Assembly: GCA_030038475.1 (NCBI GenBank)
Contig: JASHOU010000208.1
Location: 1-41,619 of the forward strand
Origin: Terriglobales bacterium
Lineage (GTDB): Bacteria; Acidobacteriota; Terriglobia; Terriglobales; Acidobacteriaceae
Reading direction: 5' to 3'
Length of the DNA stretch: 41,619 nucleotides
Part shown: piece by piece, positions 1,442 through 3,978 of the stretch
Numbering within the stretch: the first letter of the stretch is position 1
Layout: each line of letters opens with the position of its first letter
Notes under the pieces: generated by a model
Told to the model about the DNA's origin: nothing
The model's input: the letters and a program-made list of their open reading frames with translations, nothing else
Database searches by the model: none
Translations under genes and position numbers: made by a program

Positions 1442-1516
1442 TGGAGCGGGAGACGGGGATCGAACCCGCGACATCCGGCTTGGGAAGCCGACGTTCTACC
1501 GCTGAACTACTCCCGC
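1442..1516 (-). tRNA. tRNA-Gly, anticodon CCC
   Basis: Read on the minus strand, a 7-bp acceptor stem (GCGGGAG / CTCCCGC), a D arm GTTC-AGCGGTA-GAAC, an anticodon arm with loop TTCCCAA, and a T arm with GGTTCGATCC are all present. An encoded CCA tail lies at 1442-1444. The loop places CCC at positions 34-36, reading the glycine codon GGG. It stands alone, between the porin gene and an inverted-repeat element. Confidence 0.95.
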
Positions 1517-1527
1517 TCGACGTGGTT

Positions 1528-1556
1528 AGAGTACCATTGCGACTTGGCTAAGACAA
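1528..1556 (-). promoter_or_regulatory. Putative sigma-70 promoter of tRNA-Gly
   Basis: On the minus strand TTGTCT (1551-1556) and TACTCT (1528-1533) are separated by exactly 17 nt. The -10 box ends 11 nt before the tRNA 5' end, as expected for a tRNA promoter. The -10 match is modest. The inverted-repeat element stops about 46 bp upstream of the -35 box, so its insertion left this promoter intact. Confidence 0.45.
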
Positions 1557-1615
1557 TGTTTGCCGGGCGATGATGGTGGGTATTAAGAACACCCACTACG
1601 CAGGCTATGTTTGCC

Positions 1616-1648
1616 GGGGTTATACGCACTGAGGGGAAAACGCTACAC
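1616..1648 (+). repeat. Left terminal inverted repeat of the 590-bp element
   Basis: A 33-nt arm beginning ggggttatacgca. It pairs with 2173-2205 apart from one base (c versus t after the gca). Confidence 0.85.
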
Positions 1649-1716
1649 TCAACCCCAGGGGGTACGAGGCCGGGACGCGGCCATCGTCGGCACCGTACTG
1701 GTACTGATCGCGGGAG

Positions 1717-2079
1717 ATGCTTACGTTTTTTGATCTCTCACATCCAAACGCCTTTTCCTTGCTTCAAATTATTTCTATGAATCGCACTGCAAAAGTTGTG
1801 TTGCATTGGCTTGAGAGAGATAGACCGTTCCCACGGAACCAGCGCTTCTCACGACCGGCTCGCTTCGATCATCAGGGTCAGGACTGGAAACAAGACGCGT
1901 GGAACCTCACCGTCGTTACAGAGGGAAATGTCGATGCCGCAGGTCGGCAGTCGGCAACTGTGAAGTTCTTGGTCCCTAATGCCCCGCATGATTGGCTTTC
2001 GGTTGGGAAGCGTTTTACCCTTATTGAAGGGGAACTTGCCCTCGCCGAGGGCGTTGTCGAACAGATTCTTGCCTGTTGA
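1717..2079 (+). CDS. Small passenger protein of the inverted-repeat element
   Basis: The only plausible gene inside the 590-bp element, 120 aa from ATG 1717 or 100 aa from ATG 1777. The shorter form (MNRTAKVVLHWLERDR...) looks more like a natural N-terminus; neither start has a well-spaced Shine-Dalgarno. The composition is ordinary soluble alpha/beta. The C-terminal part (HDWLSVGKRFTLIEGELALAEGVVEQI) resembles the last beta-barrel of EF-Tu-like proteins, where a 'PG.RF.I.EGG..VA.G.V' pattern is usual. That resemblance is by eye, and no catalytic residues are evident. It is not a transposase. What the element gains by carrying it is unknown. An overlapping minus-strand frame is longer (1878-2402) but runs out of the element and is arginine/serine-rich, so I treat it as a shadow. 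Confidence 0.55.
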   Translation: MLTFFDLSHPNAFSLLQIISMNRTAKVVLHWLERDRPFPRNQRFSRPARFDHQGQDWKQDAWNLTVVTEGNVDAAGRQSATVKFLVPNAPHDWLSVGKRFTLIEGELALAEGVVEQILAC

Positions 2080-2172
2080 GACCTTGGAAATTCATGCGAC
2101 CTATACTCAGGGGCGCTTTTCTGTGCCCCAGATACATACCGCCGTTGCCTTCGATCAGCCGCATTTCCGTAG

Positions 2173-2205
2173 GTGTAGCGTTTTCCCCTCAATGCGTATA
2201 ACCCC
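2173..2205 (-). repeat. Right terminal inverted repeat of the 590-bp element
   Basis: 33-nt arm ending tgcgtataacccc, the reverse complement of the left arm with one mismatch. The 14-bp flanking repeat follows at once at 2206. Confidence 0.85.
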
Positions 2206-2295
2206 AGGCTATGTTTGCCTTTCTCTGACAGGCTGCGTAAGATTCCCGCTCGGATTTCGATCAGAACCCATCTGCATTTCAGGAGCGCTAACTTC

Positions 2296-3978
2296 ATGAA
2301 TCCGCTCTCCGCAAAACACAATTCGCGCCGCGACTTCATTCGCGGTGGGCTGACGACGGCTGTGGCAGCGTCAGCGTACCCGGCGCTTGGAGCGTCTGGC
2401 ATCGCCAGTCTTCGCTATGAGCCTGAGTCTGAATCTGAATCTCAGCCTACGCCTGTCGGCGACAATTTTGCGCGAGACTTTGAACTCGACGAGATCACGA
2501 TTGACGCCGTCCAGCGAGCGTTTGAGTCGGGCCAGCATACGTCGCGCTCGCTGACCGAGAAATATCTGGCGCGCGTTCAGGAGATCGATAAATCCGGGCC
2601 AAGGCTGAACGCGGTGATTGAAGTGAACCCGAATGCATTGGAGATTGCGGGTGCGCTCGATCGTGAGCGCAAGGCGAGCGGACCGCGCGGGCCGCTGCAT
2701 GGCGTTCCAGTTCTTATCAAAGACAATATCGATACGGGCGACCGAATGAATACGACGGCGGGGTCGCTCGCGCTGCTCGGATCGCGTGCTGGGAGCGACG
2801 CTTTCGTCGCTGCGCAGTTGCGCAAAGCGGGCGCTGTGATCCTGGGTAAAACCAACCTGAGCGAGTGGGCGAACATTCGCTCCAGCCACTCGACCAGCGG
2901 GTGGAGCGGGCGCGGCGGCCTTACTCGCAACCCGTATGCTCTCGATCGCAATCCGTGCGGCTCGAGTTCCGGCACAGGAGCGGGTGTGTCGGCAAACCTG
3001 TGCGTTGCCGGCGTTGGCACGGAGACGGATGGGTCGGTCGTGTGTCCATCGTCGGCGAACGGATTGGTGGGATTGAAACCTACGGTCGGACTGGTGAGCC
3101 GCAGCGGCATCATTCCGATTTCGCACAGCCAGGACACCGCGGGCCCGATGGCGCGCACAGTGCGCGATGTCGCGATACTTCTCGGAGCTATGGCAGGGGC
3201 CGATGCGCAGGATTCCGCAACCGCCGACAGCCAGCGCAGGCAGGCGCCCGACTACACGAAATTTCTCGATGCGGCGGGACTGAAAGGCGCGCGGCTGGGA
3301 GTGGTGCGCAAGTATAGCGGCTTTAACGATGCGGTCGACCGGATGATGGAGTCGATGATCGGCGCGATGAAAGGCGCCGGCGCGGAGATCGTCGACCCCG
3401 CTGACATTCCGACGATAGGCAAGTTCGACGACAGCGAACTGACCGTTTTCTATTACGAACTGAAGGCGGATCTTGCGGTTTACCTCGCGCGCCGCGGAGA
3501 TGCTTCCATCAAGAGTTTGAAAGATGTGATCGCGTTCAACGAAAGCAATCGCGAGCGGGAGATGCCGTATTTTGGGCAAGACCTTTTTCTCAAGGCGGAG
3601 CAGAAGGGTCCGCTCAGCGAAAAAGAATACCTCGATGCGTTGGCCCTGAATCGGCGGCTTAGCCGCGCCGAGGGAATTGATTTCGTAATGGACAAGTTCA
3701 AACTTGATGCGCTGGTCGCGCCGACGGCAGGCCCGGCATGGCTCACCGATTTGATCAATGGCGATCACGCTCCGGGAGGCAGTTCGAGCGCCGCGGCGGT
3801 TGCGGGATATCCGAATATCAACGTGCCGGCAGGATTTTTGTGGGGATTGCCGGTTGGTATTTCTTTCTTTGGCCGCGCGTGGAGCGAGCCGACTTTGCTT
3901 AGGATTGCCTATTCGTTCGAGCAGCCCACCAAGGCCCGCCAGAAGCCGCGATTTCTGCCGACGATTAATCTCGCGTGA
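2296..3978 (+). CDS. Tat-exported amidase-signature hydrolase
   Basis: A 560-aa amidase-signature enzyme. The ATG at 2296 is chosen over an upstream in-frame ATG (2215) because AGGAG at 2281-2285 is well placed and the protein then begins with a twin-arginine signal (SRRDFIRGG followed by an Ala-rich hydrophobic stretch, residues 10-34). The Ser-cisSer-Lys triad is visible: Lys142 in PVLIKDN, the GSSSG loop at 222-226, and the nucleophile Ser247 in GTETDGS. The family hydrolyses amide bonds, and exported members may act on peptides or xenobiotic amides. It is not GatA: it has a Tat signal and lacks gatB/gatC neighbours. Residues 43-52 are a Glu/Ser repeat linking the signal to the enzyme. The gene starts 76 bp after the inverted-repeat element. 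The substrate is unknown. Confidence 0.88.
   Translation: MNPLSAKHNSRRDFIRGGLTTAVAASAYPALGASGIASLRYEPESESESQPTPVGDNFARDFELDEITIDAVQRAFESGQHTSRSLTEKYLARVQEIDKSGPRLNAVIEVNPNALEIAGALDRERKASGPRGPLHGVPVLIKDNIDTGDRMNTTAGSLALLGSRAGSDAFVAAQLRKAGAVILGKTNLSEWANIRSSHSTSGWSGRGGLTRNPYALDRNPCGSSSGTGAGVSANLCVAGVGTETDGSVVCPSSANGLVGLKPTVGLVSRSGIIPISHSQDTAGPMARTVRDVAILLGAMAGADAQDSATADSQRRQAPDYTKFLDAAGLKGARLGVVRKYSGFNDAVDRMMESMIGAMKGAGAEIVDPADIPTIGKFDDSELTVFYYELKADLAVYLARRGDASIKSLKDVIAFNESNREREMPYFGQDLFLKAEQKGPLSEKEYLDALALNRRLSRAEGIDFVMDKFKLDALVAPTAGPAWLTDLINGDHAPGGSSSAAAVAGYPNINVPAGFLWGLPVGISFFGRAWSEPTLLRIAYSFEQPTKARQKPRFLPTINLA

Follow-up and report, generated by a model that had tools for sequence, protein, structure and literature searches.

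A 590-bp element in the genome of a soil bacterium is very probably a non-autonomous casposon-derived mini-element (a mini-casposon) that carries one cargo gene. Casposons are transposons mobilised by an integrase related to Cas1, an enzyme of CRISPR systems. Here, the window is the whole 41,619-nt stretch of DNA that was analysed, and window coordinates refer to that stretch.

A short element with inverted ends and a 14-bp duplication

The element, which is flanked by genes for tRNA-Gly(CCC) and an amidase, is bounded by two 33-nt arms that are complementary at 32 of 33 positions, with 524 nt between them. Directly outside the arms stands AGGCTATGTTTGCC, with both copies identical at 14/14 positions and 590 bp in between. 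On recheck, the arms and the duplication described by an earlier sequence-only reading proved exact. Position 1601 is C, as is 2205, which also allows the repeat to be taken as 15 bp long, but under that reading the symmetry of the arms is lost. By a simple estimate that assumes equal base frequencies, inverted 33-mers as good as these would be expected about 1e-9 times by chance in the window. The features are as follows.

1442-1516, minus strand: gene for the host tRNA-Gly(CCC), on the left, with 85 bp separating it from the duplication
1602-1615, no strand: left copy of the 14-bp target duplication, AGGCTATGTTTGCC (sequence comparison)
1616-1648, plus strand: left terminal inverted repeat of 33 bp, which matches the left end of the PolB-bearing element in G013:C118 at 31/33 positions
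1649-1685, plus strand: subterminal stretch with CCCCAGGGGGTA and GGCCGGG, resembling by eye the stretch behind several relatives' left ends
1777-2079, plus strand: cargo gene coding for 100 aa, or for 120 aa if translation begins further upstream, at 1717; open frame, all-beta model
2173-2205, minus strand: right terminal inverted repeat, 33 bp (sequence comparison)
2206-2219, no strand: right copy of the 14-bp duplication, whose last six bases, TTTGCC, carry the putative -35 box
2215-2243, plus strand: putative amidase promoter, TTGCCT (2215-2220), 17 nt, TAAGAT (2238-2243); conserved at empty sites
2296-3978, plus strand: host amidase gene (PF01425), downstream of the target (Pfam match)

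The putative amidase promoter was absent from the list returned by a strict consensus promoter scan of the window. We also observed AGACAATGTTTGCCGGG at window positions 1551-1567, 51 bp upstream, which agrees at 15/17 positions with the left duplication followed by GGG and is possibly the scar of an older insertion.

The terminal inverted repeats (33 bp, 32/33) lie above the minimum of 25 nt for casposon TIRs, and the duplication (14/14) agrees with the approximately 14-15 bp of casposons. The element lacks the two casposon genes, as neither Cas1 nor the family-B DNA polymerase PolB gave a match inside it, and there is no transposase among its open frames. The earlier description of a non-autonomous element with one small gene and no transposase thus stands, and casposon-shared ends without Cas1 and PolB of its own are what characterizes a mini-casposon or MICE.

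Empty sites in congeners

The sequence-only reading had also called the locus a clean insertion. Two genus-wide searches returned 13 relatives with a tRNA match and a close amidase match on one contig, and the tRNA-amidase gap was computed for 11 of them (G019, with the same orientation and short matches, and G015, with the other orientation, were omitted). The pair has the window's orientation in 10/11 relatives, with G013 arranged differently, and the gaps between match ends are 24-245 bp in nine relatives, 1076 bp in G022 and 673 bp in the window. When the window's joined flanks were aligned with 12 relative sequences from 11 genomes, the target side was free of an insert in five congeners (G007:C62, G003:C203, G014:C135, G016:C207 and G009:C14), as in GTTTGCC-TTTCTC...TAAGATTCCC; the remaining aligned relatives were not counted as empty because their alignment across the site was too poor. 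The first eight bases of the 14-mer differ among relatives at this site. Since the same tRNA-Gly/amidase junction occurs without the element in five congeners, the element is an insertion, as claimed. The tRNA-Gly gene, 85 bp away, was considered as the target and rejected, because the promoter side is the side conserved among insertions.

Related ends on Cas1- and PolB-bearing elements

A search of the host's own genome (4.46 Mb, 216 contigs) found only the window copy of the arm, and a search of it for a parent with type-E ends gave no match within 3 mismatches. The expectation of relatives elsewhere was borne out, as the whole 618-bp stretch matched 11/61 genomes, namely its own and 10 of the 23 others of the genus, with no arm match in any of the 37 genomes outside the genus. 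The orthologous amidase was found on none of the relatives' arm-bearing contigs. With one mismatch allowed, a short inner piece of the arm matched 14/24 genus genomes, and at least one such match (G018:C545) is not an element end. A plasmid search returned four chance-level Streptomyces matches.

We then scanned the fetched loci, a non-random sample chosen by match to arms, promoters or Cas1, for inverted arms closely enclosed by a pair of near-identical 14-mers, imposing the length of 14 and no motif. This revealed 12 complete pairs spanning 590 bp to 17.2 kb, and in all 12, one side of the 14-mer is GTCAA (GGCAA in the window) and the element ends in GGG. Genes for both Cas1 and PolB lie within the elements G004:C172, G020:C23, G015:C12, G001:C25 and G020:C53, and no Cas1 or PolB match was found in G018:C525, G017:C296 or G004:C227, as in the window's element. 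The end that the window's left arm matches at 31/33 positions, in G013:C118, has a PolB gene 0.7 kb inside; the far end of that element was not found, and the G013 genome has Cas1 fragments only. The G017:C296 element is bounded on one side by an end near the window type (28/33) and on the other by the type found at the ends of the complete elements G004:C172 and G020:C23. Among these loci, we saw no complete Cas1- and PolB-bearing element that has exactly the window type at both ends.

Two further observations concern individual elements. The G001:C25 casposon, 13.4 kb long, has perfect 147-bp inverted ends (L161 369-515 and 13638-13784), which suggests, from sequence, recent movement. At two contig ends, G007:C46 (L030 15275-15307) and G007:C91 (L031 5336-5368), the 14-mer CGTCATTCGTTGAC stands beside opposite element ends, which are probably those of one element split by assembly.

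Casposases in the genus and in the host

The Cas1 proteins of two complete Cas1- and PolB-bearing elements matched Pfam Cas_Cas1 at 2.7e-40 and 5.7e-40. Three polymerases matched DNA_pol_B_2 at 3.8e-7, 3.3e-4 and 0.021, the last two below Pfam's cut-off, and the G013 polymerase matched it at 1.2e-6. For the G004 Cas1, the best PDB sequence match was 6opm (4.6e-21), the structure of the M. mazei casposase. In two reports (PMC6614799, PMC6977970), the A. boonei and M. mazei casposases join the terminal repeats to points staggered by 14-15 bp. Because the Cas1 of relatives best matches a Methanosarcina casposase and casposases make 14-15-bp duplications, we read the ends of the 590-bp element as casposon ends. 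The duplication had been called unusually long, which is right for an insertion sequence (IS), but it is normal for a casposon.

The host genome itself encodes an intact Cas1 casposase on contig C22 (509 aa, no stop). Modelled together with 11 relatives (mean pLDDT 73, pTM 0.52), its best fold matches were three 6opm chains in loose superposition (TM by query 0.37-0.40). Four putative active-site residues, E172, H255, D267 and E270 (G004 numbering), are identical in 13/13 Cas1 proteins, and we take them to be the catalytic ones. The host casposase is 60-67% identical to six others of the 13, and 51-52% identical to the G004/G020:C23 type, so that its sequence places it in a different subfamily from the casposases encoded by those complete elements whose ends are the nearest known. 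The proposal of an active parent in this genome therefore holds in that an intact casposase is present, but not in its relatedness to the nearest-end casposases nor in a second copy of the arm. Contig C22 does not include the ends of its casposon; an open frame of at least 574 aa lies there beside the casposase gene and runs off the contig (L155 4031-5752, G000:C22).

Matches to Cas1, many of them fragments, occur in 14/24 genus genomes and 38/298 genomes of the order. Among named genomes, 35 loci were located, of which 32 are acidobacterial by title and the others come from Actinomycetes, Deltaproteobacteria and Rhodospirillales, with those of the last two groups short or weak.

We infer that a casposase, the host's own or another, made the insertion by moving the element in trans. 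In the proposed mechanism, a Cas1-type integrase supplied in trans would bind the 33-bp ends and join them, 14 bp apart, to the two target strands just upstream of the amidase promoter, and gap repair would then yield the 14-bp duplication. The -35 box of the target promoter would form the promoter-side end of the 14-mer, so that the downstream gene would retain a complete promoter.

Targets at the valS promoter and at other, putative promoters

Outside one end of many elements, we found TTTGACC-N4-TTTTC-N3-CGCCTGTAAGATCA, after which valS begins. The first part of this pattern matched 17/24 genus genomes and the longer pattern matched 58/300 family genomes (20/79 genera), and the reversed control of either gave not one match among those listed. 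The fetched loci, a few of them fetched for Cas1, contain 39 distinct copies of this promoter, one of which runs off its contig: 25 precede a valS start, 28 have CCC exactly outside the 14-mer and 18 have both, and some of the 28 are without a recognisable arm. To judge from these sequences, the valS promoter is the main insertion site of the elements. The host's own valS promoter has no element-type CCC against the 14-mer.

Several copies of the valS promoter lack an intact valS start (G004:C273, G011:C114, G014:C160 and G004:C227). The one in G004:C227 (L210 5530-6291) is followed only by the first codons of valS, and that in G014:C160 by a frame resembling the casposase C-terminus; an element may bring along or duplicate the target that it uses. 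A flank similar to the valS promoter sequence was also observed in G022:C52, and the 6.7-kb element G018:C525 (L033 1638-8347), which carries an RHS-repeat gene, sits at a valS-type promoter sequence.

Excluding valS-like copies and junctions with another element, eight targets away from valS are readable: those of the window, G007:C46, G005:C308, G011:C8, G017:C305, G001:C25, G020:C53 and G009:C81. TANNNT lies 17-18 nt from the TTGMC hexamer in 6/8 targets compared to 95/4170 TTGMC sites in the same DNA (binomial 3.8e-9), where the spacings were picked after viewing the sites and the background includes the targets. The two targets without a -10 at this distance are G011:C8, which has TAAGAT at a spacing of 14, and G009:C81, which has none. 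Downstream of the targets are genes for the amidase (window), an amidohydrolase, a beta-propeller protein, a protein kinase, a radical-SAM protein and a GAF protein, with only a 62-aa frame at G011:C8 and a 216-aa frame at G020:C53. Two ends break the target rule, one in G013:C252 (CCCCACCGTCTAAC) and one in G010:C12. Judged by sequence pattern, the fixed bases at one end of the duplicated 14-mer (GTCAA, or GGCAA in the case of the window) are the putative -35 box of the downstream promoter, so that insertion would re-create the promoter, and this group of elements tends to land just upstream of gene promoters. We likewise infer that the amidase promoter still works after the insertion.

Alternative explanations

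The inverted ends, the duplication and the missing transposase would fit equally well if the element were a MITE or a mobile insertion cassette derived from an ordinary DDE insertion sequence whose duplication is exceptionally long. This explanation was dropped after the ends turned up on PolB-bearing and, as variants, Cas1- and PolB-bearing elements; the strong site specificity of the targets also argues against it, and we consider it very unlikely. Cargo of a larger island moved by a tyrosine or serine recombinase, or an integron-like cassette, would account for one small gene with direct repeats, yet inverted ends directly inside a 14-bp duplication suit such systems so poorly that this origin is barely conceivable. 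The same near-negligible probability attaches to a fixed structural repeat that never inserted, with which the single copy in the host genome would agree. The sequence-only reading had named arms confined to this one locus in all relatives, with no empty site and no other copies, as the sign of such a repeat, and the opposite was found, with five sites empty and copies elsewhere in relatives.

A closer question is whether a casposon derivative reaches promoters only indirectly, its casposase reading GTCAA plus a flank motif that merely coincides with promoters. PMC6614799 and PMC6977970 describe the A. boonei and M. mazei casposases as needing a flank motif and the first bases of the duplication, and G009:C81 and G011:C8 lack a -10 at normal spacing, which also speaks for coincidence. 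Against it, six sites have different downstream genes, and the -10 varies (TAAGAT, TATCGT, TAGACT) with its position kept. We rate this indirect link as a real contender that falls somewhat short of an even chance.

Tandem junctions

We counted 27 distinct places with the arrangement CCC-14-mer-GGG and TTGMC, including a few (L044, L148) that resemble chance occurrences. The same count at spacings of 10, 12, 13, 15, 16 and 18 gave 5, 10, 18, 13, 1 and 1, respectively, and those at 13 and 15 are probably in large part shadows of 14 where C or G runs exceed three. In G004:C172, G020:C23, G015:C12 and G017:C296, the element and its neighbour have one 14-mer in common, which matches the copy at the element's opposite end exactly; the far ends of these four neighbours were not seen. 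Tandem casposons have been reported in Methanosarcina and Thaumarchaeota.

One possibility, whose chances we judge to be evenly balanced, is that acidobacterial casposons, autonomous and miniature, build CRISPR-like arrays at the valS promoter through the successive addition of whole elements, with 14-bp repeats between them and the -35 box on the promoter side, and that window-type elements are scattered overflow with host-useful cargo. If so, the promoter would act as the 'leader' of a Cas1 integrase, and the system would be a living model for the origin of leader-proximal repeat arrays. Unlike in CRISPR, the promoter in these proposed arrays reads away from the array.

Cargo

The window's cargo protein gave no family match, and sequence searches with it were uninformative; it has matches of 28-31% identity in three congeners. 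A single-sequence model is all beta (pLDDT 70, pTM 0.60), and 41 of the best 50 fold matches listed name EF-Tu, EF1A or elongation factor. Among those listed, the best E was 3.8e-3 with none at 0.001, and the rmsd was mostly 5-8 Å. The modelled fold thus loosely resembles EF-Tu domains, which is a lead and not an identification. Separately, the complete G004:C172 casposon contains an AbiV-type (HEPN) gene (L105 9018-9515), which points to phage-defence cargo in that element.

Comparison with known systems

The experimentally studied casposons in the literature searched are archaeal. Casposons at promoter or valS targets, or in Acidobacteriota, were not found described in that literature, which covered non-subscription papers, and casposons together with Acidobacteria were mentioned there in a reference list only. 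To us, the kind of element is known, and its host, target and cargo are apparently new.

MICE, or miniature inverted-repeat casposon elements, are reportedly short, with ends and a duplication and no Cas1 or PolB (Krupovic et al. 2016). The window's element is likewise short, with casposon-derived ends, a duplication and neither gene; it differs from MICE in carrying a gene of its own and in its host and target. An artificial M. mazei mini-casposon (PMC10359463) was moved with its cargo in trans by chromosomal proteins into the casposon's own target, giving a tandem. It shares with the window's element a cargo between casposon ends and differs in being man-made and in an archaeal host.

Casposons are proposed ancestors of CRISPR adaptation, and a large bacterial collection that includes mini-elements and hybrid ends, together with empty sites and with tandem junctions at one conserved promoter, would allow target recognition, movement in trans and array growth to be tested directly. 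Like the Methanosarcina mazei and Aciduliprofundum boonei casposons, the acidobacterial set has Cas1 and PolB, TIRs and a 14-15-bp duplication, and the target layout is also alike, with fixed GTCAA on the flank side, freer bases on the far side and a conserved flank. On the other hand, the hosts here are bacterial (Acidobacteriota), the window's element is without Cas1 and PolB, and the flank appears to be a promoter rather than a tRNA 3' end, with the fixed bases forming the putative -35 box. The first casposon paper gives a TIR range of 25-602 and intergenic, aEF-2 and tRNA targets (PMC4046053). As Tn7 does at glmS, a case compared in the same paper, these elements insert beside an essential gene, apparently without harm; Tn7 inserts behind glmS, whereas the elements here lie in front of valS or other genes with the putative -35 box in the duplication. 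This also suggests a strategy of harmless insertion in which the -35 box is duplicated and the gene keeps its promoter.
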